From Phyllobacterium myrsinacearum (GTDB taxonomy: Bacteria; Pseudomonadota; Alphaproteobacteria; Rhizobiales; Rhizobiaceae), in assembly GCF_002980555.1 (NCBI RefSeq), contig NZ_PVBT01000001.1:1240001-1304000 (forward strand): a stretch of DNA of 64,000 nt, given 5' to 3'. The position numbers were made by a program, and so were the translations under genes. The notes below the pieces were generated by a model. It did no database searches, had not been told where the DNA came from, and saw nothing but the letters and a program-made list of their open reading frames with translations. Positions 43,571 to 59,728 of the stretch are shown here, in pieces (within the stretch, counting starts at the first letter, position 1; every line of letters starts with the position of its first letter).

Positions 43571-46015
43571 TTACATCCTCACCCGCTCCGCCTTCGGATC
43601 ATACATCGGCGTGAGCGATGCCAGCGCTTTCACCCGTTCTCCGGCGATCTCGATCTCGTAGCTTGAGGACAGCACCTGTTCGGCGCTTTCGCCCCGGCAG
43701 GCGACATAACCAAGGCCGATCGCCCCGCCCAGATGGTGGCCGTAATTGCCCGAGGTGACCGTTCCGACGATTTCGCCATCGCGCACGATGGCTTCATTGT
43801 GGAACAACAGCGGCTCGGGATCGGCAAGGCGGAATTGCACCAGTCTGCGGTCCAGTCCGCTTTCCTTCTTCTGCAACACCGCATCACGCCCGATGAAGTC
43901 GCCCTTCGTGGTTTTGACGGCAAAACCAAGTCCTGCCTCCAGCACATGGTCTTCATCGGTGATATCATGGCCGAAATGCCGGAAAGCCTTTTCGATGCGG
44001 CAGGAATCCAGTGTGTGCAGGCCGCACAGTTTCAGGCCCAGCTCCTGACCGGCCTCCTCCAATGCCTCGAACACATGCGCGGTCTGATCCGACGAGACAT
44101 AAAGCTCCCAGCCAAGTTCGCCGACATAGGTGACGCGGTGGGCGCGGGCAAGGCCCATGCCGATCTCGATCTCCCGCGCCGTGCCGAAAGGATGCCCCGC
44201 ATTGGAAAAATCGTTGGGGCTGATCTTTTCGATCACATCGCGGGATTTCGGCCCCATCAGGCACAGCACGGATTCCGCCGCCGTCACATCGGTGATGACG
44301 ACAAATTCGTCCCTCACATGCTTGCGCATCCAGGCGAGATCGCGCTGCAGGGTGGCGCCGGGGACAACGGCGAAGAACGCCGTTTCCGACAGCCGGGTGA
44401 TGGTCAGGTCGCTTTCGATGCCGCCGCGATTGTTGAGCATCTGGGTGTAGACGATGCGGCCAGGCTCGACATCCAGCTGATTGGCGCAAAGTTTTTGCAG
44501 GAACGCCAGCGCATCGCGACCTTCGATGCGGATCTTGCCGAAGGAGGTCATATCGAACAGCCCGGCGCCACCCCGCACCGCCAGATGTTCGTCCCGCTGG
44601 TTGTCGAACCAGTTCTGCCGCTTCCAGGAATAGCGGTATTCGCGCTCCTGCCCGCCTTTGGCGAACCAGTTTGCCCGTTCCCATCCGGCCACTTCGCCGA
44701 AAACGGCACCGCGTGCCTTTAGATGTTCATGGATGGGCGAACGGCGGATATTGCGGGACGTTGCCATCTGCCGGTAGGGAAAATGATCGGCATAGAGCAG
44801 GCCAAGCGTCTCGGAGACACGCTCCTTCAGATACTGCCGGTTTTTTTGGAACGGCTGGGCGCGGCGGATATCGACTTCCCACAGGTCGAACGGCGCTTCG
44901 CCATCGTGAATCCACTGGGCCAGCGCCATGCCGGCGCCGCCCGACGATACGATGCCGATGGAATTGTAGCCCGCCGCCACCCAGTATCCGCCCAGTTCCG
45001 GTGCTTCGCCGAGATAATAACGGTCGTCGGGCGTGAAACTCTCAGGCCCGTTGAAAAAAGTGTGAATGCCCGCCGTGCCGAGCATCGGCATGCGGTTGAC
45101 GCCCATTTCGAGGATCGGCTCGAAATGCTCGAAATCCTCCGGCAATTGGTCGAAGCAGAAATCCTCGGAAATGCCGTTCATGCCCCACGGCTTGGCCACG
45201 GGCTCGAAGGCGCCGAGCATCATTTTCCCAGCATCTTCCTTGTAATAGGCGCACTCATCCGGCACGCGCAGCACCGGCAGGCGTCCGAGCCCCTCAATGG
45301 CCTCGGTGACAAGATAAAAATGCTCGCAGGCATGCAGAGGCACCGTCACACCCGACATCGATGCCAGATCGCGCGCCCACATGCCGGCGCAATTGATCAC
45401 CACGTCAGTCTCGATCGTGCCCTGTTCCTCGCCCTTGGCCCAGGAAACGCCGGATACCCTGCCATTCTTTTTGTGGACGCCGGTGACTTTTACGTTCTCG
45501 AAAATCCTTGCGCCGCGCTGCCTCGCGCCCTTGGCCAGTGCCATGGCGATATTGGCTGGATCGCATTGCCCGTCCAGCGGCAGATGCACCGCCCCGACCA
45601 CATCCGCAATATTAAGATGCGGATACATCTCCTTGACTTCACTCGGTGAAATCTCCCGCACATCAACATCGAAAGCGCGGGCCAGCGAAGCCTGGCGATA
45701 GATCTCGTGCTTGCGTTCTTCGGTCAGCGCAACGGTGATGGACCCCACCTGGCGCATGCCTGTGGCGACCTCCGTTTCCGCCTCCAGTTTGACGTAGAGA
45801 TCGGCGGAGTATTTGGCGAGCCGCGTCATGTTCTGCGAGGCGCGCAGCTGGCCGATCAGCCCGGCCGCATGCCACGTGGTGCCCGAGGTCAGCTGCTTGC
45901 GTTCCAGGAGAACGATGTCGGTCCAGCCCAGTTTGGCAAGATGGTAGGCGACGGAACAGCCGGAAACACCGCCCCCGATGATGACGGCTCTGGCCTTGGC
46001 CGGAAGAGAACTCAT
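43571..46015 (-). CDS. FAD/GcvT-type dimethylglycine or sarcosine dehydrogenase, copy A
   Basis: An 814-residue two-part enzyme. Residues 1-390 are a DAO-type FAD domain with the dinucleotide motif VIIGGGVSGCSVAYHLAKLG and the GTTWHAAG motif whose His carries covalent FAD in dimethylglycine dehydrogenase. The C-terminal half is GcvT-like (tetrahydrofolate-binding; TQMLNNRGGIESDLTITRL, YVGELGWELYV). It should remove an N-methyl group from dimethylglycine, sarcosine or a related amine. It overlaps copy B by four bases and is the last gene of the leftward operon. Confidence 0.87.
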   Translation of the reverse strand: MSSLPAKARAVIIGGGVSGCSVAYHLAKLGWTDIVLLERKQLTSGTTWHAAGLIGQLRASQNMTRLAKYSADLYVKLEAETEVATGMRQVGSITVALTEERKHEIYRQASLARAFDVDVREISPSEVKEMYPHLNIADVVGAVHLPLDGQCDPANIAMALAKGARQRGARIFENVKVTGVHKKNGRVSGVSWAKGEEQGTIETDVVINCAGMWARDLASMSGVTVPLHACEHFYLVTEAIEGLGRLPVLRVPDECAYYKEDAGKMMLGAFEPVAKPWGMNGISEDFCFDQLPEDFEHFEPILEMGVNRMPMLGTAGIHTFFNGPESFTPDDRYYLGEAPELGGYWVAAGYNSIGIVSSGGAGMALAQWIHDGEAPFDLWEVDIRRAQPFQKNRQYLKERVSETLGLLYADHFPYRQMATSRNIRRSPIHEHLKARGAVFGEVAGWERANWFAKGGQEREYRYSWKRQNWFDNQRDEHLAVRGGAGLFDMTSFGKIRIEGRDALAFLQKLCANQLDVEPGRIVYTQMLNNRGGIESDLTITRLSETAFFAVVPGATLQRDLAWMRKHVRDEFVVITDVTAAESVLCLMGPKSRDVIEKISPNDFSNAGHPFGTAREIEIGMGLARAHRVTYVGELGWELYVSSDQTAHVFEALEEAGQELGLKLCGLHTLDSCRIEKAFRHFGHDITDEDHVLEAGLGFAVKTTKGDFIGRDAVLQKKESGLDRRLVQFRLADPEPLLFHNEAIVRDGEIVGTVTSGNYGHHLGGAIGLGYVACRGESAEQVLSSSYEIEIAGERVKALASLTPMYDPKAERVRM

Positions 46016-48459
46016 GCGCGGATTCTTTCATTGTTGGGGTCCCAGAGCGGCTGATCCGGATGCACGGTGGCCTTGAAGCGTTCGCCGAAAATCTCGATCT
46101 CGATTTGTGTTCCAGGTTCAGTGAGTTCGGTCTTGAGCATGCCGAGCGCGATGGATTTGTCGATCCGGTGCCCCCAGCCGCCCGAGGTGGTTTCGCCAAC
46201 AATGCTGCCCTTGTGCCAGAGCGTCGACATATAGGGCGCATCGCAATCCCCGGCATCGACGGTCAGGGTGACGAAGCGCTTCTTCACACCATGCTGCCTT
46301 TCGCTTTCCAGCGCGGCTTTGCCGAGAAAATCAGGCTTTTCCCATTTGATGAAACGGTCGAGCCCGCTTTGCAACGGCGTATAGTCGGTGGACAGATCGC
46401 CCTTCCAGGCGCGGTAGCCTTTTTCCAGCCGCAGCGAGTCCAGCGCATACATGCCGAACGGTTTTAGCCCGTATGGCTGGCCCGCCTGCCAGACCGCATC
46501 GAAAATCGCCTGGGTATCGGCGACCTTGCTGTGGATTTCCCAGCCCAGTTCTCCGGCAAACGACACGCGCACAAGCTGGCAATAGCGTCCGGCAATCTGC
46601 GTCGTCTGGTGTGACAGCCAGGATTTGCCAAGGTCCGCATCGCAGATACCGGCAAAGAGATCGCGCGCCTTGGGGCCGGTGACGATCTGGCAGGAAAATT
46701 GCTCGGTGACATTGCTGATGCTGATCGCGCTGCCCCTGGGCAGGTGTTTTTGCAGCCATTCCAGATCGTGCCACTCGGCAACGCCCGCAGTGATGAGGAA
46801 AAACACGTCCTCATCAATGGCCATGATCGACATTTCCGTGACGACACGGCCCTTTGCATCGGCGAAATAGCCAAGGCCGATGCGGCCGGGTTTCGGCACC
46901 AGACCGGTGATCAGGCCGGAAAGCCAGTCGCGTGCGCCCGGCCCGCTCACCTTGAAGCGGGAAAAACCGGGCAGATCGAGAATGCCGACGGCATCGCGCA
47001 CCGCATGGCATTCCTCGCGGATGCGCCGCTGCCACGGCCCTTCCCGCTTAAAGGTCTGTGTCGCCTCTTCGGACGTGTCGTCGCCGGGCTGCGCATACCA
47101 GTTTGCCCGCTCCCAGCCATTATAGGCGCCGAACTGCGCGCCCAAACCGGTCACGCGCGCATGCAGCGGCGAAAGCTTTTTGTCGCGTCCCGCGGACCAT
47201 GTATGGCGCGGAAAATGAATGGCATATTCGTGGCCATAGACCTCCACGCCCTTGGCAACGCTGTAGTCGTGGTCGGCAAAGGCGGTGAAGCGGCGCGGAT
47301 CGCAGGACCACATGTCCCATTCGGTCGCGCCTTCCGTGACCCATTCGGCCAGAACTTTTCCTGCCCCGCCCGCCTGCGCGATGCCGAAGGTGAACACACA
47401 GGCTTCGAACGCATTGGGTACGCCCGGCATCGGCCCGATCAGCGGATTGCCGTCGGGCGCATAGGGAATGGGGCCATTGATGATTTTCGACAGGCCGGCG
47501 GTGCCGAGGATCGGCACGCGGGCGATTGCGTCGTTCAGATACCATTCGAGCCGTTCCAGATCGTCAGGAAACAGCTGGAAGGAGAAATCGTCCGGCATCG
47601 GATCGTCGGCCGTTGCCCAATGCGCCCGGCAATTGCGCTCATAGGGCCCGAGATTCATGCCGTTCTTTTCCTGCCGGAGATAATAGGACGAATCCACATC
47701 GCGCAGCAGCGGCAGCTTGTGGCCCTCTTGGCGGCTCCATGCGGCAATCTCGGGGATCTCGTCGAACAGCAGATATTGATGGCTCATGACCATCATCGGC
47801 ACGGCGCGGCCAAACAGCCTGCCGATTTCCTGCGCGCGGTAACCGGCGGCATTGACCACATATTCGCAGCGGATCTCGCCCTGCGGCGTCGCGATCACCC
47901 ATTCGTCGCCGTCGCGCCGGGCACCCGTCACCGGGCAGAAACGGATGATTTTTGCACCCATGTCGCGCGCGCCCTTCGCCAGCGCCTGCGTCAGCTGGGC
48001 GGGATCGATATCGCCATCGTTCGGATCGTACAGCGCACCGGCCAGATCATGCGTCGCAATGAAGGGATAGCGGCCATTGATCTCATCGACGCCGAGCACA
48101 TCGATATCCATGCCCTGATAGCGGCCCATGCCTTTCACGCGCTGGAACTCGCGCATGCGCTCCTTGCCATGGGCGAGCCGCAGCGAACCGGTGACATGGT
48201 AGTTCATGGGATAATCGACTTCCTGCGCCAGCCGCCGGTACAGCTCGGCGGAATAGCGCTGCATGTTCATCACCGACCACGAGGCGGAGAAGGTCGGCAC
48301 ATTGCCCGCCGCATGCCAGGTGGAGCCTGATGTCAGCTCGTTCTTCTCCAGAAGCACGCAATCGGTCCATCCGGCCTTGGCGAGATGATACAGCGATGAG
48401 ACGCCGACCGCCCCGCCGCCGATGATGACGACCCGCGCCGACGTTGGAAATTCAGACAT
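46012..48459 (-). CDS. FAD/GcvT-type dimethylglycine or sarcosine dehydrogenase, copy B
   Basis: An 815-residue paralogue with the same architecture: VVIIGGGAVGVSSLYHLAKAGW, SGSTWHAAGNVPTF (FAD-attachment His), and a C-terminal GcvT domain (GLGYFADAKGRVVTEMSI, FAGELGWEIHSK). It is clearly diverged from copy A, which suggests different substrates such as dimethylglycine for one and sarcosine or another N-methyl amine for the other. The gene starts 32 bases after the Rieske oxygenase stop, in the same operon. Confidence 0.87.
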   Translation of the reverse strand: MSEFPTSARVVIIGGGAVGVSSLYHLAKAGWTDCVLLEKNELTSGSTWHAAGNVPTFSASWSVMNMQRYSAELYRRLAQEVDYPMNYHVTGSLRLAHGKERMREFQRVKGMGRYQGMDIDVLGVDEINGRYPFIATHDLAGALYDPNDGDIDPAQLTQALAKGARDMGAKIIRFCPVTGARRDGDEWVIATPQGEIRCEYVVNAAGYRAQEIGRLFGRAVPMMVMSHQYLLFDEIPEIAAWSRQEGHKLPLLRDVDSSYYLRQEKNGMNLGPYERNCRAHWATADDPMPDDFSFQLFPDDLERLEWYLNDAIARVPILGTAGLSKIINGPIPYAPDGNPLIGPMPGVPNAFEACVFTFGIAQAGGAGKVLAEWVTEGATEWDMWSCDPRRFTAFADHDYSVAKGVEVYGHEYAIHFPRHTWSAGRDKKLSPLHARVTGLGAQFGAYNGWERANWYAQPGDDTSEEATQTFKREGPWQRRIREECHAVRDAVGILDLPGFSRFKVSGPGARDWLSGLITGLVPKPGRIGLGYFADAKGRVVTEMSIMAIDEDVFFLITAGVAEWHDLEWLQKHLPRGSAISISNVTEQFSCQIVTGPKARDLFAGICDADLGKSWLSHQTTQIAGRYCQLVRVSFAGELGWEIHSKVADTQAIFDAVWQAGQPYGLKPFGMYALDSLRLEKGYRAWKGDLSTDYTPLQSGLDRFIKWEKPDFLGKAALESERQHGVKKRFVTLTVDAGDCDAPYMSTLWHKGSIVGETTSGGWGHRIDKSIALGMLKTELTEPGTQIEIEIFGERFKATVHPDQPLWDPNNERIRA

Positions 48460-48491
48460 ATACGGTCTCCCATGATCTCATGCTGTTTGGC

Positions 48492-49724
48492 TTACGCCCG
48501 TGCGATTTCATCGAGGTACCACTGGATGTACCGCAACTCGTTGTGTTCCATGGGCGCGATGGGCCCCGGCACGAAATAGTGCGAGCGCACGCCGCGCGCC
48601 GTGTGTTCGATGATCGTCTTGTCCTCGGCGGTGGTCACCTTCCAGAGCCATGTCAGCTTGTCCAGATCGTAATCCCGGCCCTCCTGCGCATCGCCGCGCA
48701 CCAGCCAGATCAGCTCCATCTCGCAGGTATCAGCCGTCTTCGGAATGAAACGATAAATCATGCCATGGTCGGGGTAGCACACGAGGAAACTGGTACCGCC
48801 AAGGTGGATGGAGGTCACGCCGCCATCGAATTCGGTGAAACGCCCCATCAGCGGGCCAACCGGCGAGCCATCCTCGCTGCCGCTCGACACGCCGTCATAG
48901 AGCGCATAGCGGAACGTATGAATCGTTTCATGGCCCTGCGCGGAACTCTGCCAATGGTCACCCGTAGCGATATCGATGCCGAGCGCGCAGGTGCGCTGCT
49001 CCATCCGGGCATTCAGCTCGGTGATTTTTTCCAGCGGCTGCTCAAGCGCATGAGTCTGCGAATATTCCGGATGCGCCGGACCGCAGTGGTAACACTCGAC
49101 ATAATTTTCAACCGCCAGTTTCCAGTTGGCATCTACCGGATAGGTCTCGCGGTGCGCCACCTTGGCATCGGCCCAGCCATATTGGCCGCAGGTGGTGCGC
49201 AGCGACTGCTCGATAATGTCGAAGTTCAACGGTTCGTCGGCAAAGCAGATAAAAATCAACCCTTCGGCCACACGCACATGCAGTTTTTTCAGGCCATGCG
49301 CACTGCGGTCGAAATCCCGCGGCATCAGCCGCGCTGCGCGCAGGCTGCCGTCATTCATATAGGTCCAAGCGTGATAGGGACAGACGAAGAAGCGGGCATT
49401 GCCCTTCTGCTGGGTGCAGACCTCGGCGCCGCGATGGCGGCAGACATTGAGAAACGCGTGGATCGAACCGTCTTCGGTGCGCGACACGATCACCGCCTCC
49501 GAATCGATCTTGAACAGCTCGAAATCGCCCGCATTGGGAATGATGCTGGCATGGCCGATGCAATGCCAATGGCGGCGGAACACACGTTCCATATCCCGGG
49601 CATAGACATCCGGATCCATGTAGAAGGCGCGCGCCAGCCCATGACCGGGCCGGTATTCCGCAATCATGCGATCGATCTTGTCGCCTGCCGGTGCAACGCC
49701 GGCCAATGCCTGTTCCGCGCCCAT
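48492..49724 (-). CDS. Rieske oxygenase, probable glycine betaine monooxygenase (GbcA-like)
   Basis: A 410-residue ring-hydroxylating-type oxygenase alpha subunit. The Rieske cluster ligands are Cys95-x-His97 (NVCRHRGAE) and Cys115-x2-His118 (VCPYHAWTY); mononuclear iron ligands are His213 and His218 in ENYVECYHCGPAHPEY. Such enzymes demethylate glycine betaine (GbcA) or stachydrine. Operon position ahead of two dimethylglycine-dehydrogenase-like genes favours betaine. No GbcB-type reductase gene is in the window. The ATG at 49724 follows GAGG; the upstream extension overlaps the LysR gene region. Confidence 0.85.
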   Translation of the reverse strand: MGAEQALAGVAPAGDKIDRMIAEYRPGHGLARAFYMDPDVYARDMERVFRRHWHCIGHASIIPNAGDFELFKIDSEAVIVSRTEDGSIHAFLNVCRHRGAEVCTQQKGNARFFVCPYHAWTYMNDGSLRAARLMPRDFDRSAHGLKKLHVRVAEGLIFICFADEPLNFDIIEQSLRTTCGQYGWADAKVAHRETYPVDANWKLAVENYVECYHCGPAHPEYSQTHALEQPLEKITELNARMEQRTCALGIDIATGDHWQSSAQGHETIHTFRYALYDGVSSGSEDGSPVGPLMGRFTEFDGGVTSIHLGGTSFLVCYPDHGMIYRFIPKTADTCEMELIWLVRGDAQEGRDYDLDKLTWLWKVTTAEDKTIIEHTARGVRSHYFVPGPIAPMEHNELRYIQWYLDEIARA

Positions 49725-49791
49725 GTTAGCCTCGCTCGAAAAGAGTGTTCCCCGGACGCGCTCCCTTGTTTCCCGGATGCGTCGCAGATTA

Positions 49792-49851
49792 GAATGATTC
49801 CGCATTGGGCGCCGTTCAAGCGATGGTTGCTCATCAAGACATGAATTATTC
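49792..49851. promoter_or_regulatory. Two GAATNATTC sites between the Rieske and LysR genes
   Basis: GAATGATTC (49792-49800) and GAATTATTC (49843-49851) are the same 9-bp palindrome 51 bases apart, about five helical turns, in the 157-base divergent promoter region. They are candidates for binding by the LysR regulator. Confidence 0.4.
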
Positions 49852-50963: not shown

Positions 50964-51443
50964 TCACTTCCTTCTAATCCCGATTGATTTCCCAACCCGC
51001 GCCGGAATCCCAAGCTTCGCATGGGCATCCCGGTAAAACGCCAGCTTTGGCAGCACATCCTCCGGGAACGGCACAACCTTCGGGCCGTTCATATCCACGT
51101 GCAGTGACAGGACTTCCGAGGTCGCAGCGACCCAGCCATCGACGTGAATGATTTCATTATAGGTATGCAAACGCTTGCCGTCGAAATCGATCAGCTGGCT
51201 GGTAACCGTCACCAGATGGTCGAGATGGATCTCCTGCACGTAACAGATATGAACCTCGGCCGTGTAGATCGTCAGCCTGCGTTGCGCCGCATATGTCGGG
51301 CCAAACCCCAGTTCGGCGAGGAATTCGTCACCGCCCCGGTCGAACACCACATTGTAATAGGCCATGTTCAGATGGCCGTTATAATCGATCCACTCCTTTT
51401 CCATGGCTATCGGAGCGGAGCGGTACAATTCACCTTCTGGCAT
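50964..51443 (-). CDS. cdhB: Hotdog thioesterase, probable betainyl-CoA thioesterase (CdhB)
   Basis: A 159-residue 4HBT-family protein starting MPEGELYRSAPIAMEKEWIDYNGHLNMAYYNVVFDRGGDEF, with an active-site Asp/Asn-His region typical of acyl-CoA hotdogs. ATG 51443 follows GAGGGGA. In Pseudomonas carnitine catabolism CdhB hydrolyses betainyl-CoA to glycine betaine and CoA; neighbours here match CdhA, CdhC and CdhR, which supports this role. In some rhizobia this activity is fused to the carnitine dehydrogenase; here it is separate. Confidence 0.78.
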   Translation of the reverse strand: MPEGELYRSAPIAMEKEWIDYNGHLNMAYYNVVFDRGGDEFLAELGFGPTYAAQRRLTIYTAEVHICYVQEIHLDHLVTVTSQLIDFDGKRLHTYNEIIHVDGWVAATSEVLSLHVDMNGPKVVPFPEDVLPKLAFYRDAHAKLGIPARVGKSIGIRRK

Positions 51444-51536: not shown

Positions 51537-52523
51537 CTATCGATTGGCGCCGGAGCGCAGGCTGCTCGGCGGCTTGCCCTCGAAGGTGCGGAACGTGCGC
51601 GCAAAGGCGGCGGCCGAGGAGAAACCCGTGCGCGCGGCGATATCGGCCAGCGGGGTTTTGGTATCGGTGATCAGCCGCCGCGCGATCTTCAGGCGCAGGC
51701 GCAGATAATAGCGGCCCGGTCCCTCGCCCACGGCTTTCGCAAAAATCTTTTCCAGGCTGCGCGCGCTCAGGCCGCAGCGTTTGGCGATCGCGCCGATGGT
51801 GAGCGGCGCATCGAGATTGCCCTCCATAAGCCGGATCGCGGTGGCGAGTTTCGGATGGACATCGTCAAGCCGCCCGAGCGAGACAAGCGGCTGCGCATCA
51901 TTGGATGCATGGGCTTCGTCATAGATGAAGACGCTCGCCACATCGAGCGCCACGGACATGCCGCAGCGCGAGCGGATGAGATGCAGCATCAGGTCGAAGG
52001 TGGGCGATGCACCGCCCGTGGTGAACACCGGCCCGTCGATGACATAGCGGTCCGGCCGGATATCCGCCTCGGGAAATTCGGCGGTGAATTCCTCCATGTC
52101 CTCCCAGTGGGTGGTGGCACGCCGTCCCCGCAGCAGCCCTGCCCGGCCGAGCAGCCATGACCCCGCTTCGATGCCGCCGATCATCCGGTAGTGATGCATG
52201 GCGCGGCGCAGGCTGGCGGTAAAGGTGGTGCGCGAAATATCCGAGGTGCCGAACCCGCCGATCATCAGCAGCATGTCGGCCTTATCAGCCGGATCGAACG
52301 CGCCGGAGACGGCAATCGGCAGGCTGCAGGTGGTGATCGCCGGGTTGCCGTCGAGCGAAACGATCCGCCATTTGAACAGGGTGCTGCCCGAGACGCGGTT
52401 GGCAGCGCGCATCGGGTCGATGGTCGATGCCACGCACATCAGCGACGCGCCGCTGAAGACGAGAACCGTCACCTCAAGCGTTTTGGCATCGGGCAAAAAG
52501 AGGGGCGACGTTTCGCTATTCAT
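51537..52523 (-). CDS. cdhR: GlxA family AraC-type regulator, probable CdhR
   Basis: A 328-residue regulator with an N-terminal DJ-1/PfpI-like amidotransferase domain (VTVLVFSGASLMCVASTIDPMRAANRVSG; MLLMIGGFG) and a C-terminal AraC HTH (RLMEGNLDAPLTIGAIAKRCGLSARSLEKIFAKAVGEGP; DIAARTGFSSAAAFARTF). GlxA proteins of this kind (CdhR, GbdR) sense carnitine- or betaine-type compounds. The gene is divergent from the carnitine operon, with a palindrome between. The upstream frame extension to 52784 overlaps the BKACE gene and is not used. Confidence 0.85.
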   Translation of the reverse strand: MNSETSPLFLPDAKTLEVTVLVFSGASLMCVASTIDPMRAANRVSGSTLFKWRIVSLDGNPAITTCSLPIAVSGAFDPADKADMLLMIGGFGTSDISRTTFTASLRRAMHHYRMIGGIEAGSWLLGRAGLLRGRRATTHWEDMEEFTAEFPEADIRPDRYVIDGPVFTTGGASPTFDLMLHLIRSRCGMSVALDVASVFIYDEAHASNDAQPLVSLGRLDDVHPKLATAIRLMEGNLDAPLTIGAIAKRCGLSARSLEKIFAKAVGEGPGRYYLRLRLKIARRLITDTKTPLADIAARTGFSSAAAFARTFRTFEGKPPSSLRSGANR

Positions 52524-52602: not shown

Positions 52603-53508
52603 ATGGGACTCACCCCCAATCGCGACGTATTCATCACCTGTGCCGTCACCGGCGCGGGCGACACGACAGGCCGTTCCGACAAGGTTCCGGTCACCCCGCG
52701 GCAGATCGCCGACGAGTGCATTTCCGCCGCCAATGCCGGTGCCGCCGTGGCGCATATCCATGTGCGCGATCCGAAGACCGGCAAGGGATCGCGCGATGTC
52801 GCGCTCTATGCGGAAGTGGTCGAGCTGATCAAGGCATCCGGCGTCGACATGGTGCTGAACCTCACCGCCGGCATGGGCGGTGATCTGACGCTCGGCAGCA
52901 CCGAACAGCCGATGCCGCCCTCACCTGTTGGAACCGATATGGTCGGCGCCACCGAGCGGCTCGTGCATGTGGCCAAGCTGCGCCCGGAAATCTGCACGCT
53001 CGACTGCGGCACGATGAATTTCGGCGAAGGCGATTACGTCATGACCAATACGCCGGCCATGCTGAAAGACATGGCGGCGCAGATCAAGGCGCTGGGCGTG
53101 CGCCCGGAAGTCGAGATTTTCGATACCGGCCACCTGCTCCTCGCCAAATGGCTCTATGACCAGAAGCTTCTGGAGGACCCGGTCATGGTGCAGCTGTGCA
53201 TGGGCATTCCGTGGGGCGCGCCCGACGATATCAACACGCTTTTGGCGCTGACCAACAACCTGCCCGCCAACTGGACATTTTCAGCCTTCTCCATCGGCCG
53301 CAACCAGCTGCCCTATGCGGCCATGGCCATGCTGGCCGGCGGCAATATCCGCGTCGGCCTCGAAGACAATATCTGGCTCGACAAGGGCGTTCTTGCCACC
53401 AACGGCCAGTTGGTCGAACGGGCCGTGAAGGTCGCCGAAGGCATCGGCGCCAGAATTCTTGGACCGGACGAGGTTCGGGCCCGCATGAAACTGACAAAGG
53501 GCTGGTGA
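52603..53508 (+). CDS. cdhC: BKACE-family dehydrocarnitine cleavage enzyme (CdhC-like)
   Basis: A 301-residue DUF849/beta-keto acid cleavage enzyme. The zinc ligands are His51 and His53 in [19 protein letters not shown], and the TIM-barrel C-terminal part includes [16 protein letters not shown] with the third ligand Glu. In carnitine catabolism this enzyme uses acetyl-CoA to cleave 3-dehydrocarnitine to betainyl-CoA and acetoacetate. It is immediately upstream of carnitine dehydrogenase (four-base gap), which supports this over the lysine-pathway role of the family. Confidence 0.87.
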
Positions 53509-53512: not shown

Positions 53513-54577
53513 ATGAGCGTCATTCGCAAAGCGGCAGCCGTCGGCGGCGGCGTCATCGGTGCGGGCTGGGTTGCCCGTCTCATCCTCAACGGCATCGACG
53601 TATCGATCTTCGATCCGGACCGGGAGGCGGAACGCAAGGTCAGCGAGGTGATGAAGAATTCACGCCGCGCCTACAAGACCATGGTGCCCGGCGGCCTGCC
53701 GCAGGAGGGCAAGCTGACCTTCGCAAAAACCATTGCCGAAGCCGTGGCCGGTGCCAATTTCATCCAGGAAAGCGTGCCGGAACGCCTCGACCTCAAGCAC
53801 AAGGTGCTGGCGGAGATCGACAAGCACGCGGCGGTCGATGCCATTATCGGCTCGTCCACCTCAGGCATCCTGCCGTCCGATATGCAGACATCGATGCAGC
53901 ATCCCGAGCGCCTTGTTGTCGGCCACCCCTACAACCCGGTCTATCTCCTGCCGCTGGTTGAAATCGTCGGTGGCAAGCTGACCTCGCCGGAAGCCATCGA
54001 AACCGCGCGGGAACTCTATGCTTCCATCGGCATGAAACCCGTCGTCATCCGCAAGGAAATCGAAGCTTTTGTCGGCGACCGCCTGCTCGAAGCCGTCTGG
54101 CGCGAAGCGCTGTGGCTGATCAAGGACGACATCACCACCGTCGAGGAACTCGACGATATCATGCGCTATTCCTTCGGCATCCGCTGGGCGCAGATGGGCA
54201 TGTTCCAGGTTTACCGCGTGGCGGGCGGCGAAGCCGGCATGCGTCACTTCATGGCCCAGTTCGGACCCTGCCTGTCCTGGCCTTGGACAAAGCTGATGGA
54301 CGTGCCTGAACTCACCGACGAACTCGTCGACAAGATCGCCGCCCAGTCCGATGAACAGGCGCATGGCCTCTCCATCCGCGAACTGGAACGCATCCGCGAC
54401 GATAACCTCGTGGCCATCATGGATGCCCTCTCCCGCCAGAACAAGGGCAAGGGCTGGGGTGCCGGTGCGCTCTACAAGGATTACACCAAGCAACTGTCCA
54501 AGCTGGCCAAGAAGCCTGCGGTTTCCAAGGCGGCTGAAAAGGCCGTTTCCAGCAAGCCTAAGAAAAAGAAGGGCTAA
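53513..54577 (+). CDS. cdhA: L-carnitine 3-dehydrogenase
   Basis: NAD+-dependent oxidation of L-carnitine to 3-dehydrocarnitine. The 354-residue protein has the 3-hydroxyacyl-CoA dehydrogenase fold: N-terminal NAD site AAVGGGVIGAGWVARLIL, a catalytic region GHPYNPVYLLPLVEIVGG and a C-terminal helical domain. It is about 30 residues longer than the usual enzyme because of a Lys/Ala-rich tail (KKPAVSKAAEKAVSSK onward, ending KKKKG). The thioesterase domain fused in some rhizobial homologues is absent. Confidence 0.9.
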   Translation: MSVIRKAAAVGGGVIGAGWVARLILNGIDVSIFDPDREAERKVSEVMKNSRRAYKTMVPGGLPQEGKLTFAKTIAEAVAGANFIQESVPERLDLKHKVLAEIDKHAAVDAIIGSSTSGILPSDMQTSMQHPERLVVGHPYNPVYLLPLVEIVGGKLTSPEAIETARELYASIGMKPVVIRKEIEAFVGDRLLEAVWREALWLIKDDITTVEELDDIMRYSFGIRWAQMGMFQVYRVAGGEAGMRHFMAQFGPCLSWPWTKLMDVPELTDELVDKIAAQSDEQAHGLSIRELERIRDDNLVAIMDALSRQNKGKGWGAGALYKDYTKQLSKLAKKPAVSKAAEKAVSSKPKKKKG

Positions 54578-54580
54578 GCC

Positions 54581-55744
54581 ATGGATTTCGGTCTTTCGGA
54601 GGAGCAAAGGCTGATTGTCGAAACGACACGCGCCTTTGTCGAAAACGAGCTTTACCCGCATGAAGTGGAAGTGGAGCGCACTGGTGTCCTGCGCAAGGAG
54701 CTTGCGGACGAACTGAAGCAGAAGGCGATTGCAGCCGGCCTTTATGCGGCGAACATGCCGGAATCCGTCGGCGGCGCCGGTCTTGATACCGTGACATGGC
54801 TGCTCTACGAAAAGGAGCTTGGCCGCGCCAATTATGCGCTGCACTGGTCCTGCGTCGGCCGTCCCTCGAACATCCTGCTCGCCGGTACCGACGCGCAGAA
54901 GGAAAAATACCTCTATCCCTGCATTCGCGGCGAAAAGTCCGATTGCCTCGCCATGACGGAACCGGGCGCCGGTTCCGATCTGCGCGGCATGAAGGCGACG
55001 GCCGTGGAAAAGGGCGGTGACTGGATCGTCAACGGCACCAAGCATTTCATCAGCCATGCGCTGGAAGCGGATTTCGTCATCCTCTTCGTGGCCTCCGGCG
55101 AGGAAGACACGCCGCGCGGCAAGAAAAAGAAAATCACCGCCTTCTTCGTCGACAAGGGCCATCCAGGGATGACCATCCGCGAGGGATACCGCAACGTCTC
55201 GCACCGCGGCTATACCAATGCCATCGTCGAGTTCGACGATTGCCGCCTGCCCGCAGACGCCATCCTTGGCGAGGTGCACAAGGGTTTCGAGGTCGCCAAT
55301 ACATGGCTTGGCGCGACGCGTCTGCAGGTTGCGGCCACCTGTCTCGGCCGGGCCGAACGGGCGCTTGGCCATGCGATTGAATACGCGGCGCAGCGGGAAC
55401 AGTTCGGCCAGCAAATCGGCAAGTTTCAGGGCGTCTCGTTCAAGCTTGCCGACATGGCAACGGAACTGAAGGCCGCCGATCTCCTGACCTTCGAGGCGGG
55501 CTGGAAGTTCGATCAGGGCACGGTCACCGATCAGGACATGGCCATGGCCAAGCTGAAGGCCACGGAAATGCTCGCCTTCGTCGCCGACGAGGCGATCCAG
55601 ATTCACGGCGGCATGGGCCTGATGGACGATCTGCCGCTTGAGCGCATCTGGCGCGATGCACGGGTCGAGCGCATCTGGGAAGGCACATCGGAAATCCAGC
55701 GGCACATCATTTCGCGCGCCCTGCTTCGTCCGCATGGAGCGTAA
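54581..55744 (+). CDS. Acyl-CoA dehydrogenase, possible gamma-butyrobetainyl-CoA dehydrogenase
   Basis: FAD acyl-CoA dehydrogenase of 387 residues starting MDFGLSEEQRLIVETTRAFVENELYPHEVEVE. The FAD-binding segment CLAMTEPGAGSDLRG and the C-terminal QIHGGMGLMDDLPLERIWRDARVERIWEGTSEIQR, with its catalytic Glu, are clear. It resembles the CaiA/butyrobetaine branch in wording, and its place with a CoA ligase and hydratase suggests that it oxidises gamma-butyrobetainyl-CoA to crotonobetainyl-CoA. A role on another acyl-CoA remains possible. Confidence 0.82.
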   Translation: MDFGLSEEQRLIVETTRAFVENELYPHEVEVERTGVLRKELADELKQKAIAAGLYAANMPESVGGAGLDTVTWLLYEKELGRANYALHWSCVGRPSNILLAGTDAQKEKYLYPCIRGEKSDCLAMTEPGAGSDLRGMKATAVEKGGDWIVNGTKHFISHALEADFVILFVASGEEDTPRGKKKKITAFFVDKGHPGMTIREGYRNVSHRGYTNAIVEFDDCRLPADAILGEVHKGFEVANTWLGATRLQVAATCLGRAERALGHAIEYAAQREQFGQQIGKFQGVSFKLADMATELKAADLLTFEAGWKFDQGTVTDQDMAMAKLKATEMLAFVADEAIQIHGGMGLMDDLPLERIWRDARVERIWEGTSEIQRHIISRALLRPHGA

Positions 55745-55764
55745 GTGGTTATGCGGTCAGGTTT

Positions 55765-55925
55765 CACCCCCCTCTGTCCTGCCGGACATCTCCCCCACAA
55801 GGGGGGAGATCGGCCTGCATTGCCGTTTCTGCGAAATTTGAAACGTTTCCTGTTGTGCGAAAACATTCATGCCAATGTGATCTCCCCCCTTGTGGGGGAG
55901 ATGTCCGGCAGGACAGAGGGGGGTG
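55765..55925. repeat. REP/BIME-like palindromic element, copy 3
   Basis: About 161 bp from CACCCCCCTCTGTCC to GGACAGAGGGGGGTG, with both arms of the TCCTGCCGGA type, so it is the most complete palindrome of the three. Local hairpins CTCCCCCACAAGGGGGGAG at each end, central 60-70 bases unpaired. It interrupts the catabolic operon between the acyl-CoA dehydrogenase and the CoA ligase, where it may attenuate transcription or affect mRNA stability. Confidence 0.85.
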
Positions 55926-55933
55926 CCTGATAC

Positions 55934-58006
55934 ATGCACGCACTCGACCGTCTGCTCCGTCCCAAAACCATTGCCGTCTTCGGCGGCCTTCAGGCCGCCG
56001 AAGTCATAAAGCAATCACAGAAAATGGGGTTCTCCGGCCAGATATGGCCGGTGCATCCCAAGCATGACGAAGTCCTCGGCCTCAAGGCCTACCGGTCCGT
56101 TGCCGATTTGCCCGGCAGCCCCGATGCCGCCTTTGTCGGCGTCAACCGCTTCCTGACCCTCGATATCGTCCGCCAATTGCGTGAACGCGGCGCAGGTGTT
56201 GCCGTCTGCTACGCCTCGGGGTTTCTTGAAGCGGGTGCCGATGACGCGGATGGCGCACGCCTGCAGGACGAACTGATCGCGGCGGCCGGCGACATGCCCA
56301 TCATCGGGCCGAACTGCTATGGCCTGATCAATTACTGCGATGGCGCCCTGCTCTGGCCCGACCAGCATGGCGGGCGCAGGCTTGCCGCCGGTGAACGCGG
56401 TGTCGCCATCATCACGCAATCTTCCAACATCGCCATCAACATGACCATGCAGACGCGCGGATTGCCGATTGCCCACGTCATGACGGCGGGCAACCAGGCG
56501 CAGACCGGCCTGCCCGACATGGCCATCGCCCTGCTTGAAGATGATCGGGTGACGGCGCTGGGCCTGCACATCGAGGCGTTTCAATCCGCAGCAAAGTTCG
56601 AAGTTTTGGCAAAACGGGCGCGGGAACTCAACAAGCCGATTGTCGCCATGAAGGTCGGACGCTCCGCGCAGGCGCGCGCCGCCACGGTGTCGCACACGGC
56701 CTCGCTGGCCGGATCGGATGCGGCCTCGGATGCATTTTTGCAACGGCTCGGCATTGCCCGCGTCAATTCCATCGCCTCTTTTCTTGAAACGCTGAAACTG
56801 CTGCATGTGCACGGGCCGCTTGACGGCGACACGCTGTGCTCCATGAGCTGTTCCGGCGGCGAAGCCTCCGTCATGGCCGACAGCGCCGAGGGGCGGAGCA
56901 TCCACTTTCCACCGCTCACGCCGGAGCATCGCGCCAAGGTCAAGTCCACGCTGGGGCCGCTGGTCGCCGTCGCCAATCCGCTGGATTACCACACCTTCAT
57001 CTGGAACAACGAACCGGCGCTGACCGAGACTTTCACGGCCATGGTATCCGGCGGTTTTGCCTTGAGCTGTCTCGTCCTCGATTTTCCGCGCAAGGATCGC
57101 TGTTCCGATGTCGACTGGTGGTCGACGGTACGTGGCCTTGAATCGGCCCTCAAAACCAACAGGGCCAAGGGTGCCATCGTCGCCTCACTGCCGGAAAACA
57201 TCCCGGAAGAGTATATGGCCGGGCTGATGGCGCAAGGCATTGCGCCGCTCTGCGGCATCACCGAAGCATTCGATGCGGCCGAGGCCGCCGCCTTTATCGG
57301 CAAGGCATGGAAGATGCCCCCAGCCGTGCCCGTCGCCATCCCGGAAATCCGTGGTGCAGAGGAACGGGCGCCCGATGAAGCGCAAGCTAAAGCCATCCTT
57401 GCCAATCGCGGCCTGCCCGTACCACCGGGCAGACGCTGCCGGACGGTCGATGCGGCCGTTGCGGCTGCGCAGGACCTGACGTTCCCGGTTGCGCTCAAGG
57501 CGCTCGGCGTCGCGCACAAATCCGAATTGAATGCCGTGCGGCTCAATCTGCGCGATGCGGATGCCGTGCGCGCGGCGGCAACCGACCTCATTGCCATCGG
57601 CAACGGCCTCTATGTCGAGCGCATGGTGACAGATGCGGTTGCGGAACTGATCGTCGGCATTGTCGATGATCCGCAGTTTGGGCCGCTGATGACCCTTGGA
57701 ACCGGCGGCGTGCTGGTGGAGCTGCTGCAGGACAGTGTCACGCTGCTGCTACCCTCCGGCCGCGCGGAGATCGAAGCGGCTCTTCGGAGCCTGCGCATGT
57801 TTCCGCTGCTCGATGGCTATCGCGGCAAGCCGAAAGCCGATCTGGATGCCGCAATCGATGCCATTCTTGGCATTGCCGGTTTTGCCGTTGAGAATGCGGG
57901 GCGGATCGTTGAACTCGATATCAATCCGCTGCTTGTATGCCGCAGCGGCCAAGGCGCTTGGATCGCCGATGCGCTGTTAATCACCAGGGGAGAGCTGCAT
58001 GAATGA
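55934..58006 (+). CDS. NDP-forming acyl-CoA ligase (acetate--CoA ligase family)
   Basis: A 690-residue single-chain ligase of the ADP-forming superfamily: CoA-binding Rossmann domain (DRLLRPKTIAVFGGLQAAEVIKQS), succinyl-CoA-ligase-like domains with the phosphohistidine segment ATVSHTASLAGSDAASDAFL, and an ATP-grasp domain at the C-terminus (FPVALKALGVAHKSELNAVRLNL; FAVENAGRIVELDINPLLVC). By context it could activate gamma-butyrobetaine, crotonobetaine or carnitine to the CoA thioester, a job done by the AMP-forming CaiC elsewhere. Its start is nine bases after the palindromic element. Confidence 0.85.
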   Translation: MHALDRLLRPKTIAVFGGLQAAEVIKQSQKMGFSGQIWPVHPKHDEVLGLKAYRSVADLPGSPDAAFVGVNRFLTLDIVRQLRERGAGVAVCYASGFLEAGADDADGARLQDELIAAAGDMPIIGPNCYGLINYCDGALLWPDQHGGRRLAAGERGVAIITQSSNIAINMTMQTRGLPIAHVMTAGNQAQTGLPDMAIALLEDDRVTALGLHIEAFQSAAKFEVLAKRARELNKPIVAMKVGRSAQARAATVSHTASLAGSDAASDAFLQRLGIARVNSIASFLETLKLLHVHGPLDGDTLCSMSCSGGEASVMADSAEGRSIHFPPLTPEHRAKVKSTLGPLVAVANPLDYHTFIWNNEPALTETFTAMVSGGFALSCLVLDFPRKDRCSDVDWWSTVRGLESALKTNRAKGAIVASLPENIPEEYMAGLMAQGIAPLCGITEAFDAAEAAAFIGKAWKMPPAVPVAIPEIRGAEERAPDEAQAKAILANRGLPVPPGRRCRTVDAAVAAAQDLTFPVALKALGVAHKSELNAVRLNLRDADAVRAAATDLIAIGNGLYVERMVTDAVAELIVGIVDDPQFGPLMTLGTGGVLVELLQDSVTLLLPSGRAEIEAALRSLRMFPLLDGYRGKPKADLDAAIDAILGIAGFAVENAGRIVELDINPLLVCRSGQGAWIADALLITRGELHE

Positions 58007-58781
58007 TGTTGTCAGGACGCGCCGCGAGGGCGGCATTCTCGAAGTCACATTGGACCGTCCGAAGGCCAATGCCATCGACCTGAAGACCAGCCGCCTGCTC
58101 GGTGAAACGTTTCAAAAGTTCCGCGACGATCCCGAGCTTCGCGTCGCCATTGTCCAGACCGAGGGCGACAAGTTCTTTTGCGCCGGCTGGGATCTGAAAG
58201 CGGCGGCAGGCGGCGATGCGGTTGATGGTGACTACGGCGTCGGCGGTTTTGGCGGCCTGCAGGAACTGCGCGACTTCAACAAGCCTGTGATCGCCGCAGT
58301 TAACGGCATGGCGGTCGGCGGCGGGTTCGAACTCGCCCTCTCCTGCGATCTCATCTATGCGTCAGACCATTCCAGCTTTGCCCTGCCGGAAATCCGCGCG
58401 GGTACGCTGGCCGACGCCGCCACGGTGAAACTGCCCAAGCGCATTCCCTACCACGTCGCCATGGACCTGCTTCTGACCGGCCGCTGGATGGATGTCGCCG
58501 AGGCGCACCGCTGGGGCCTCGTCAACGAGGTCCTGCCCAAGGACAAGCTGATGCAACGGGTGTGGGAGATCGCCCGGCTTCTGGAAAGCGGCCCGCCGCT
58601 GGTGTTCGCCGCCATCAAGGAAGTGGCGCGCGAGGCGGAAGACATGAGCTTCCAGGACGCGATGAACTGGATCACCAAGCGCAAATTCCGCACGGTTGAC
58701 ATGCTCTACGCTTCGGAAGACGGTCAGGAAGGGTTTAAAGCCTTTGCCGAAAAACGCGATCCCGTATGGAAGGGCAGATGA
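57999..58781 (+). CDS. Enoyl-CoA hydratase, possible crotonobetainyl-CoA hydratase
   Basis: A 260-residue crotonase-family protein: TRREGGILEVTLDRPKANAID, oxyanion-hole segments GDKFFCAGWDLKAA and NGMAVGGGFELALSCDLIYAS, and the catalytic-loop region ALPEIRAGTLADAATVKLPKRIPYHVAMDLLLTGR. It looks like the CaiD branch, which interconverts crotonobetainyl-CoA and carnitinyl-CoA. It overlaps the ligase by eight bases and the esterase by four. Confidence 0.85.
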   Translation: MNDVVRTRREGGILEVTLDRPKANAIDLKTSRLLGETFQKFRDDPELRVAIVQTEGDKFFCAGWDLKAAAGGDAVDGDYGVGGFGGLQELRDFNKPVIAAVNGMAVGGGFELALSCDLIYASDHSSFALPEIRAGTLADAATVKLPKRIPYHVAMDLLLTGRWMDVAEAHRWGLVNEVLPKDKLMQRVWEIARLLESGPPLVFAAIKEVAREAEDMSFQDAMNWITKRKFRTVDMLYASEDGQEGFKAFAEKRDPVWKGR

Positions 58782-59728
58782 GCGCGGATTATTCAGTCCT
58801 GATCGACGCGGAAACCTGGGCCTTCATCGAGCGGACGAACAGCTTTTATCCGCCCGATGCCGTCGACTATACCGTCGCGCAGCAGCGCGATGTCTATAAC
58901 ACCATGTGCAAGGCCTTTTTTGCCGGTTATCCGGAATCGGTGTCGTCGGCTGATCGCTTCATCGATGCGCGAGACCACAAGATACCCATCCGCATCTACG
59001 AAAAACGCGACAGCGATCCTGAAGCGGTCTGCCTCTATTTCCATGGCGGCGGCTTTGTCGTCGGCGGCCTCGACAGCCATGACGACGTCTGTGCTGAGAT
59101 TTGCGAGGCAACCGGCTTCCGCGTCATTTCGGTTGACTACCGCCTCGCCCCCGAACATCTGCATCCCGCCTCATTCCGGGATTGCCTTGCAGCCTTTGAA
59201 CATGTGGCGTCCATCTCGGAACTGCCTGTCGTCCTATGTGGAGACAGTGCAGGAGGCAATCTCGCAGCAGCAGTCTCGCACACTGTACGCGGTGATGACC
59301 GGCAGCCGATTGGGCAAGTGCTCATTTATCCGGGACTCGGCGGCGCGACGGATCGAGGCTCCTATCTGACCCATGCGCAAGCACCGATGCTGACGACGCG
59401 CGATACCCTCTATTATGCGGAAATCAGGGGTGGCGGGTTCAACTGGTCGACGGACCCGCGCTTTGCCCCGCTGGCCGATCCGGATTTTTCCGGCCTGCCC
59501 GATACCGTCGTGATCTCGGCCGAATGCGATCCGCTTTCCGACGATGGCAGGCACTATTGCCAGCGCATCTCGGCGGCGGGCGGCAAGGCAATCTGGAACA
59601 ATGAGCCCGGCCTCGTGCACGGCTATCTGCGTGCCCGCCACACTGTTACACGCGCGCGCTCCAGTTTCCGCCGCATCTGCACCGCCGTGCATCTGCTGGG
59701 ACAGGGGCGCTGGCCGGGCCAGCTTTAA
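58778..59728 (+). CDS. Alpha/beta hydrolase of the HSL family, possible acylcarnitine esterase
   Basis: A 316-residue hydrolase: oxyanion motif HGGGF (89-93), nucleophile elbow GDSAGG (Ser157), Asp in ISAECDPLSDDG and His in EPGLVHGYLRARH. The ATG at 58778 makes an ATGA overlap with the hydratase stop; an upstream ATG at 58766 is possible. Place at the end of the carnitine operon suggests that it frees carnitine from short-chain acylcarnitines, as Pseudomonas HocS does, but sequence alone does not fix the substrate. Confidence 0.82.
   Translation: MSADYSVLIDAETWAFIERTNSFYPPDAVDYTVAQQRDVYNTMCKAFFAGYPESVSSADRFIDARDHKIPIRIYEKRDSDPEAVCLYFHGGGFVVGGLDSHDDVCAEICEATGFRVISVDYRLAPEHLHPASFRDCLAAFEHVASISELPVVLCGDSAGGNLAAAVSHTVRGDDRQPIGQVLIYPGLGGATDRGSYLTHAQAPMLTTRDTLYYAEIRGGGFNWSTDPRFAPLADPDFSGLPDTVVISAECDPLSDDGRHYCQRISAAGGKAIWNNEPGLVHGYLRARHTVTRARSSFRRICTAVHLLGQGRWPGQL

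Follow-up and report, generated by a model that had tools for sequence, protein, structure and literature searches.

A conserved Phyllobacterium gene block as a candidate aerobic catabolic island for gamma-butyrobetaine and carnitine

INTRODUCTION

gamma-Butyrobetaine and carnitine occur in soil and in plant and animal debris, and the bacterial route by which they are broken down decides whether trimethylamine or glycine betaine is the yield. In Escherichia coli, a CaiD-type hydratase and an acyl-CoA dehydrogenase share the intermediates of this chemistry. Patents exist on the genes of the Rhizobium-like strain HK4. Pseudomonas aeruginosa carries cdhCAB, which we take to encode a dehydrogenase, a cleavage enzyme, and a thioesterase. 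These genes lie in an operon, caiX-cdhCAB-hocS with divergent cdhR, that passages of PMC5806209 describe as leading from carnitine to glycine betaine, and strain HK4 makes carnitine from gamma-butyrobetaine according to passages of PMC2131755. The carnitine dehydrogenase (CDH) of S. meliloti also has betainyl-CoA hydrolase activity (Bazire 2019, as quoted in a passage of PMC12482172).

In this study, we analyzed a window of 64,000 nucleotides from Phyllobacterium myrsinacearum (NZ_PVBT01000001.1, positions 1,240,001 to 1,304,000). The host is a plant-associated soil bacterium, and the gene block described here is compact and conserved. A search of titles, abstract openings, and some passages, with few subscription journals covered, returned no description of this gene set. 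From sequence, we put at about 0.75 the probability that the whole block serves the aerobic catabolism of C4 trimethylammonium acids. Its core operon, consisting of genes for BKACE, CDH, an acyl-CoA dehydrogenase, an acyl-CoA ligase, and a CaiD-like hydratase with a divergent GlxA-type regulator, very probably encodes an aerobic route from gamma-butyrobetaine and crotonobetaine to glycine betaine.

RESULTS

The genes named in a preliminary description of this DNA are all present as open reading frames within 43571-59728 and match the families claimed for them. That inventory left unmentioned the alpha/beta hydrolase gene (58766-59728), which lies inside the interval, and the ABC transporter genes that begin at 59752.

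43571..46015, minus strand: gcvT1, FAD/GcvT flavoprotein, sarcosine-dehydrogenase-like; DAO, FAO_M, GCV_T, and GCV_T_C domains
46012..48459, minus strand: gcvT2, FAD/GcvT flavoprotein, dimethylglycine-dehydrogenase-like; 600 bits to DMGDH 4pab, residues 3-812
48492..49724, minus strand: Rieske oxygenase of an uncharacterised clade; Rieske and Ring_hydroxyl_A domains, 410 aa
49882..50778, plus strand: GcvA-like LysR regulator, transcribed divergently from the demethylation genes; GcvA model 255.1 bits, below the cut-off of 288
50964..51443, minus strand: candidate betainyl-CoA thioesterase (4HBT_2); matches the carnitine 3-dehydrogenase model best among NCBIfam models, at its C-terminal positions 352-494
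51537..52523, minus strand: AraC regulator of the GlxA family, transcribed divergently from the catabolic operon; top NCBIfam model GbdR with 204 bits, below the cut-off of 480
52603..53508, plus strand: BKACE (3-dehydrocarnitine cleavage); PF05853, 320.3 bits
53513..54577, plus strand: L-carnitine 3-dehydrogenase (CDH); NF005716, 600.5 bits, above the curated cut-off of 592
54581..55744, plus strand: acyl-CoA dehydrogenase, candidate butyrobetainyl-CoA dehydrogenase; family match, WEGT motif
55934..58006, plus strand: ADP/NDP-forming acyl-CoA ligase, candidate butyrobetaine/crotonobetaine ligase; domains, conserved His254 and Trp357
57999..58781, plus strand: predicted crotonobetainyl-CoA hydratase (CaiD-like); NF002936, 316.6 bits
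58766..59728, plus strand: HSL-type alpha/beta hydrolase that may be an acylcarnitine esterase; Abhydrolase_3; LipP1 model 236.3 bits, below the cut-off of 350
59752..61413, minus strand: ABC transporter double ATPase (oligopeptide/nickel type), from sequence
61406..62236, minus strand: ABC transporter permease, from sequence
62246..63205, minus strand: second ABC transporter permease, from sequence
63217..64000, minus strand: substrate-binding protein, running beyond the window end (L082:7218-8813); closest NCBIfam model of NikA type with 164.4 bits, below the cut-off of 600

The genes do not lie in the order of the chemistry. They form three physical groups: gcvT1, gcvT2, and the Rieske gene on the minus strand with the LysR gene divergent; the thioesterase and GlxA genes on the minus strand; and BKACE, CDH, acyl-CoA dehydrogenase, ligase, hydratase, and alpha/beta hydrolase genes on the plus strand. 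BKACE and thioesterase genes beside CDH, with a divergent AraC/GlxA regulator, place the locus among carnitine operons of this type. The hydrolase has HGGG/GDSAG motifs and the hydratase has two Glu residues; the meaning of these, of WEGT, and of the flavoprotein and Rieske motifs given below is presumed from general knowledge.

Across 20 of 20 genomes of the genus, the ten genes from gcvT1 to the ligase keep both their order and their orientation (in one the ligase is cut by a contig edge, and in one the gcvT2 match is split in two), and the hydratase and hydrolase are conserved in 19, the twentieth stopping at a contig edge. This conserved run of genes in Phyllobacterium is more than chance. 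Arginase and ornithine aminotransferase genes, considered as further members, were not found alongside in 3 of the 20 relatives and thus probably lie outside the island.

We surveyed 297 genomes of the order, scoring up to three ligase and up to six CDH candidates per genome. Ligase places with at least 44% identity lay within 10 kb of CDH in 42 of 51 cases, 41 of them on the same strand as CDH, leaving 9 without CDH nearby; below 44% identity, 1 of 19 places was so linked. Such a ligase was not found near 25 of 68 CDH places. We also compared 80 named loci, the best of at least 591, with flanks of at most 9 kb; several of these loci end at contig edges. Of these 80 best loci, 77 contain the dehydrogenase-ligase-hydratase triad, 70 the full set of five core genes, and 71 a GlxA-type regulator, and 5 of the 7 triads without CDH in reach end at contig edges. 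A thioesterase match follows CDH directly in frame, taken as a fusion, in 30 of the 80. By tblastn at E<1e-30, the alpha/beta hydrolase has homologues in 49 and the transporter ATPase in 42; homologues of each permease occur in 41 and of the substrate-binding protein in 40, the four transporter genes being together in 40.

The extension of the pathway upstream of carnitine, through ligase, dehydrogenase, and hydratase, was first put forward as conjecture. It is supported by the conserved linkage of these genes to CDH and BKACE and by the hydratase, which matches the crotonobetainyl-CoA hydratase family best, with a score below the CaiD cut-off of 500 bits. The acyl-CoA dehydrogenase falls below the curated CaiA cut-off; among NCBIfam models it comes closest to acryloyl-CoA reductase, at 290.2 bits against a cut-off of 640. 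The ligase belongs to the ADP/NDP-forming acyl-CoA synthetase superfamily, with CoA-binding, ligase-CoA, and ATP-grasp domains and the phospho-His.

The family assignment of the two FAD/GcvT proteins held, as both have the full set of four domains and the covalent-FAD His motif of the DMGDH/SARDH family. gcvT1 scores 452.7 bits to DMGDH and carries the motifs TSGTTWHAAG (covalent-FAD) and GGIESD; we infer that gcvT1 is the SARDH and gcvT2 the DMGDH. The two flavoprotein demethylation steps are likely. The Rieske protein, 410 aa from ATG 49724, which is about the length of its relatives (437 aa from ATG 49805), has the 2Cys-2His and N-x-x-E-C-x-H-x4-H iron motifs. Its substrate is uncertain, because a better GbcAB candidate pair is encoded elsewhere in the genome: the preliminary description had made the window protein the glycine betaine demethylase, but it matches GbcA more weakly than the genome's other Rieske protein does (286.6 versus 522.2 bits; GbcA cut-off 670), and it is that other protein whose gene precedes one for a GbcB-like reductase. 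All of these matches lie below the curated cut-offs. In a tree, the window protein falls in a different clade from this GbcA-like protein, Stc2, and 3n0q. The carnitine monooxygenase CntA was rejected as an identity (129 bits, mainly over query residues 58-251, versus 237-247 bits for Stc2/3n0q).

The best-surviving alternative concerns the demethylation half only. It holds that the Rieske-flavoprotein module acts on some other quaternary or N-methyl compound, unrelated to glycine betaine, with its adjacency to the carnitine genes a local arrangement, and we consider this a fair possibility, though less probable than not. The separate clade and the GbcA/GbcB-like pair are in its favor, as is the distribution of the module, which lies near 3 of the 80 best named triad loci, all Phyllobacterium. 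Rieske relatives without flavoproteins nearby occur in Shinella and other loci (among 11 such loci, the only further group shared by at least three is a MetE-like ORF, so named by annotation, in 3 loci), and in genome G060, assembled in 1890 contigs, the module is present while the ligase and CDH were not found at the thresholds applied. Against this stand the DMGDH-like neighbors and a Rieske relative that in 1 of 14 loci, that of genome G300, sits directly behind gbcA-gbcB in the same orientation. The claimed link to betaine demethylation has partial support: the module adjoins the carnitine operon in every one of the 20 genomes of the genus and, with its genes arranged differently, at three loci beyond them; the sparse occurrence near triad loci tells against it. 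These three, Neorhizobium NCHU2750, Rhizobium CC-CFT758, and a genome of the same family (G330), carry the module beside a carnitine operon in another arrangement, and a CDH plus BKACE tree places their operons in a Rhizobium/Shinella clade rather than with Phyllobacterium, so the neighborhood arose or was retained in two operon lineages.

A further alternative, which we consider unlikely, is that the triad acts on a different cationic C4-C5 acid, for instance 4-guanidinobutyrate or 5-trimethylammoniovalerate from an AruH/AruI-type route, the carnitine genes being adjacent through shared chemistry or regulation. In 5 of 5 genomes compared from one genus (g69), aruH, aruI, acyl-CoA dehydrogenase, ligase, and hydratase genes follow one another in this order on one strand with no CDH in the stretch; these copies are more distant, however (ligase 48-49%, hydratase 47-48%). 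An aruH-aruI pair lies about 12 kb downstream of the hydrolase gene in this genome, as it does in all 5 other Phyllobacterium genomes compared out of the 20, with AruI at 766.1 bits against a subfamily cut-off of 500, but neither gene was found in the 80 best named loci within flanks of up to 9 kb. Passages of PMC6514802 place a COG0028 acetolactate-synthase-like gene and a betaine-aldehyde-dehydrogenase-like gene between two carnitine modules of Psychrobacter plasmid pP32BP2. Set against this reading, the frequent linkage of the triad is to CDH and BKACE, and the best family of its hydratase is that of crotonobetainyl-CoA. A variant would fit the preferred reading: an AruH/AruI-type route may start from a methylated basic amino acid and supply the triad with gamma-butyrobetaine.

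In the ligase, His254 and Trp357 are conserved in 63 of 63 alignment rows of at least 44% identity and Trp395 is Trp in 60; Trp357 is also present in 3 of 4 more distant homologues and so does not discriminate. Phe435 of DddX aligns to a gap adjoining Trp395 in the multiple alignment; a cation cage of Trp357 and Trp395 is conceivable. It is very improbable that the ligase acts as a DMSP lyase of the DddX type, with acryloyl-CoA as the compound processed by the triad: the ligase matches DddX (7cm9) collinearly in a single stretch over residues 10-672 (E 1.8e-58), the phospho-His and a Trp of DddX's cation-pi pair are conserved, and acryloyl-CoA reductase tops the acyl-CoA dehydrogenase matches, but the neighbors are carnitine genes and Glu432, the proposed catalytic base (PMC8163506), is not conserved, its position being Asp in the window and 32 of 63 rows and Ala, Pro, Val, or others elsewhere.

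DISCUSSION

Our preferred reading is that the block converts C4 trimethylammonium acids to glycine betaine and demethylates the product. The oligopeptide-type ABC transporter would import gamma-butyrobetaine, crotonobetaine, carnitine, or acylcarnitines. Judged by family and linkage, the ADP-forming ligase would form the CoA thioester, the acyl-CoA dehydrogenase would yield crotonobetainyl-CoA, and the CaiD-like hydratase would give L-carnitinyl-CoA. The chemistry that follows is established for the families: CDH would oxidize free carnitine to 3-dehydrocarnitine, BKACE would cleave this with acetyl-CoA, giving acetoacetate plus betainyl-CoA, and glycine betaine would be released by the thioesterase. 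Passages of PMC12482172 and PMC5806209 also back these three steps in part. The Rieske and two FAD/GcvT proteins would then most likely remove N-methyl groups from glycine betaine, dimethylglycine, and sarcosine, with GlxA and LysR each predicted to control one half.

To call this pathway complete was too strong, as an enzyme from carnitinyl-CoA to carnitine is not among the assigned genes, and profile matches found no Rieske reductase or GbcB partner among the 12 genes of the block. The reversible ADP-forming ligase could itself release carnitine from carnitinyl-CoA. A bolder proposal, tentative and on balance doubtful, joins two ideas: that the ligase is a reversible CoA shuttle and that the Rieske clade offers another way from glycine betaine to dimethylglycine, one independent of GbcA. 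The ligase would spend one ATP to load CoA on gamma-butyrobetaine and would recover ATP and CoA from L-carnitinyl-CoA, so that one enzyme would replace CaiB and CaiC and carnitine formation would be nearly ATP-neutral. The shuttle is suggested, circumstantially, by the scarcity of CoA-transferase matches near the ligase (a family III match, with one query from locus L067 at E<1e-15, lies within 9 kb in 1 of the 80 best named loci), by the association of the sole recognised thioesterase with CDH, and by retention of the ligase where the triad is apart from CDH. The block draws attention to a branch of Rieske oxygenases that has gone unstudied and to a CoA cycle that might save ATP. It also offers a gene set, open to testing, by which rhizobia, Mesorhizobium, and some Gammaproteobacteria would form betaine without yielding trimethylamine, and which may serve carnitine production as well.

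The island has precedent in the HK4 route and the CdhR operon, and the chemistry itself is not new. Linked to CDH, the Phyllobacterium genes for CoA ligase, acyl-CoA dehydrogenase, and hydratase make up what we infer to be the defining gene set of an HK4-type route; the likeness to the HK4/HK1349 pathway from gamma-butyrobetaine to L-carnitine (Lonza process) is one of the chemistry described in passages of PMC2131755, not of gene sequences. The same passages show a CaiD-type hydratase and an acyl-CoA dehydrogenase acting on the same intermediates in E. coli caiTABCDE. That system runs in the opposite direction, anaerobically, with the CaiB CoA-transferase and CaiC. Like the P. aeruginosa operon, as presented in parts of PMC5806209, the Phyllobacterium block has an AraC-family regulator in divergent orientation and encodes a hydrolase (in P. 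aeruginosa for short-chain acylcarnitines), the hydrolases being likened by role. The P. aeruginosa operon as named there lacks the ligase, dehydrogenase, and hydratase found in Phyllobacterium, whose thioesterase gene is on the other strand and whose neighboring transporter is of the oligopeptide type. The S. meliloti CDH, from what is quoted of it, combines both activities in one protein, whereas Phyllobacterium encodes its thioesterase separately and on the opposite strand. The window Rieske protein shares superfamily and iron-ligand motif with GbcAB and the stachydrine demethylase Stc2, but at about 32-35% identity, in a separate clade, and in a block without a reductase gene. Finally, the CntAB-type module of Psychrobacter (CAR), in the passages of PMC6514802, resembles the Phyllobacterium block in its carnitine substrate and its nearby Rieske and LysR genes; unlike that block, it has its own reductase and leads to trimethylamine and malate.

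Gene organization of the island

Reading frames and family matches divide positions 43571 to 59728 into three gene groups, which are listed here together with the genes that lie beyond them (L082 is a stretch of the same genome that runs past the window end).

Features of the island and its downstream flank
43571-46015, minus: FAD/GcvT flavoprotein gcvT1
46012-48459, minus: FAD/GcvT flavoprotein gcvT2
48492-49724 or 48492-49805, minus: Rieske oxygenase
49882-50778, divergent from the gcvT1-gcvT2-Rieske group: LysR regulator
50964-51443, minus: 4HBT_2 thioesterase
51537-52523, minus: GlxA-type regulator
52603-53508, plus: BKACE (3-dehydrocarnitine cleavage)
53513-54577, plus: carnitine dehydrogenase (CDH)
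54581-55744, plus: acyl-CoA dehydrogenase
55934-58006, plus: ADP-forming ligase
57999-58781, plus: hydratase
58766-59728, plus: alpha/beta hydrolase
Past the island, minus: ABC transporter of the oligopeptide/nickel type, its binding protein extending over the window end
L082:8929-10941: CocE/NonD-family hydrolase, adjoining the transporter on its far side
L082:14475-19886, outside the window and downstream of the hydratase by about 12-17 kb: DDAH/arginine-deiminase-like and TetR-like genes (by eye), aminotransferase, AruI, aldehyde dehydrogenase

CDH scores 600.5 bits against a curated cutoff of 592, and the top match of the thioesterase is the C-terminal part of the CDH model. The top family of the hydratase is crotonobetainyl-CoA hydratase, at 316.6 bits and below the cutoff of 500. 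The acyl-CoA dehydrogenase has short-chain acyl-CoA dehydrogenases as its nearest PDB entries and stays below every equivalog cutoff among the family models. Catalytic motifs are intact in the island proteins. An arginase and ornithine aminotransferase pair (41130-43389) adjoins the island and was found next to it in 17 of 20 relatives.

Linkage of the ligase, dehydrogenase, and hydratase to carnitine genes

The order gcvT1-gcvT2-Rieske-LysR-thioesterase-GlxA-BKACE-CDH-acyl-CoA dehydrogenase-ligase is kept in all 20 same-genus genomes, with the hydratase and hydrolase also present in 19; the 20th stops at a contig edge. For a sample of 297 genomes of the order, we compared the coordinates of 70 ligase places (E at most 1e-110, from 57 genomes) with those of 68 CDH places (E at most 1e-70, from 67 genomes), the window itself being counted among them and only a few first-look candidates being scored per genome. 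CDH lies within 10 kb of 42 of the 51 ligase places of at least 44% identity, 41 of them on the same strand, and of 1 of the 19 places below 44%. Counted in reverse, a ligase is close to 43 of the 68 CDH places and, at these thresholds, to none of the other 25.

A scan of named genomes gave at least 591 stretches, and the best 80 were kept as loci, from Phyllobacterium, Mesorhizobium, Aminobacter, Rhizobium, Shinella, Ensifer, and others, including some Gammaproteobacteria and Rhodobacterales. With homologues counted at E<1e-30 in flanks of up to 9 kb, and contig ends truncating some loci, these best 80 of at least 591 hold the triad (acyl-CoA dehydrogenase, ligase, and hydratase) in 77 cases and the triad with CDH and BKACE in 70. 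A GlxA-type regulator is found in 71, the alpha/beta hydrolase in 49, the transporter ATPase in 42, all four transporter genes in 40, and a CocE homologue in 24. The upstream extension of the carnitine pathway by the triad, an inference in the preliminary description, is supported by this linkage in both surveys. The CocE and alpha/beta hydrolases suggest uptake and cleavage of esters, for example, acylcarnitines.

The triad also occurs without an adjacent CDH in three other genomes, G035 (locus L052, with GlxA), G079 (L193, with GlxA and the transporter), and G122 (L192). At L052:9254-10456, another Rieske-type protein lies by GlxA and the triad, with CDH and BKACE not adjacent. In G122 and four genomes of its genus, a distant one, aruH-aruI precedes the triad in a same-strand run, which makes 5 of the 5 genomes fetched. 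In the genome of the window the same pair lies beyond the transporter, as it does in 5 of 5 other Phyllobacterium genomes fetched from the 20; an aldehyde dehydrogenase was found alongside here and in 4 of the 5 others. The AruI protein of L082 scores above the family model's cutoff for 5-guanidino-2-oxopentanoate decarboxylase. An amino acid route could feed the triad, a reading kept as a rival, or the pair could simply be a nearby arginine cluster. Neither aruH nor aruI was found in flanks of up to 9 kb in the best 80 of at least 591 stretches.

The ligase and the carnitinyl-CoA gap

In the ligase, CoA-binding, ligase-CoA, and ATP-grasp domains are arranged as in the DMSP lyase DddX; of the three solved structures that match best, DddX alone aligns in one stretch. 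By the multiple alignment on which the residue counts are based, the phosphohistidine and Trp391 of DddX correspond to His254 and Trp357 of the ligase in 63 of 63 rows of at least 44% (this genome's own copy included); the pairwise alignment pairs Trp391 with a different residue. Glu432 of DddX, proposed to act as catalytic base in the lyase reaction (PMC8163506), has no conserved counterpart in the 63 rows of the multiple alignment. A DddX-type lyase role was rejected on this ground, and from its sequence the protein is more likely a plain ligase.

Carnitine dehydrogenase acts on free carnitine, whereas the product of the hydratase, by its family, would be carnitinyl-CoA, which leaves a gap between the two steps. 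Among the best 80 of at least 591 stretches, a family III CoA-transferase query matches near the ligase in 1; a thioesterase match follows CDH directly and in frame in 30 and lies elsewhere in 4, the thioesterase query has no match in 37, and CDH is beyond reach in 9. ADP-forming synthetases are reversible, so the predicted ligase itself could free carnitine and recover ATP.

The demethylation module

The match of gcvT2 to mammalian DMGDH is full length at 600 bits and that of gcvT1 weaker at 453 bits; by this homology, dimethylglycine and sarcosine are likely the flavoprotein substrates. The FAO_M domain occurs in three further proteins of this genome. PF00848 has one further match in this genome besides the window Rieske protein, and next after its gene comes one for a GbcB-like reductase (378.9 bits, below the cutoff of 500). 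It is this other Rieske protein that fits the GbcA model better, with 522.2 bits versus 286.6, and in a 32-row tree, several outer rows of which have long branches, the window Rieske belongs to a 24-row clade (100/99) apart from the GbcA candidate, Stc2, and 3n0q. The role of glycine betaine demethylase first assigned to the window gene is therefore not upheld. The GbcA/GbcB-like pair lies at L078:8350-15485, also in this genome, with PurU-like and fatty-acid-desaturase-like genes nearby (both by eye).

Relatives of the window Rieske of at least 74% occur in 9 of 297 genomes, this one included. Both flavoproteins adjoin the Rieske gene in 3 of 12 loci fetched, 1 of these also with the carnitine operon, and both flavoproteins and the operon accompany it in 2 of 7 plasmid loci. 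In 1 of 14 loci, that of genome G300, a Rieske relative directly follows gbcA-gbcB (L105:7070-10978, same strand, 78% relative). For the three Rieske-operon cases outside Phyllobacterium, a CDH and BKACE tree places the operon in a Rhizobium/Shinella clade. Adjacency in two operon lineages means that the modules were brought or kept together in both, which argues for a working link between demethylation and the carnitine operon. The fusion with betaine demethylation inferred in the preliminary description is supported to that extent, but the link is not general: the Rieske gene is found in only 3 of the best 80 of at least 591 stretches. Matches in two pieces were seen for gcvT2 (loci L037 and L070), the acyl-CoA dehydrogenase (L057), and the ligase (L070); either broken frames or errors in sequencing could account for them.

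Comparison with known systems

In a literature search with subscription journals largely outside its coverage, we found no publication on the conserved gene set with the ADP-forming ligase and transporter, or on the window Rieske clade. The pathway itself is known in outline from published precedents, among them the Rhizobium-like strain HK4, which forms carnitine from gamma-butyrobetaine (PMC2131755), and the Pseudomonas operon, which in the accessible text of its description has a divergent CdhR and an acylcarnitine hydrolase (PMC5806209).
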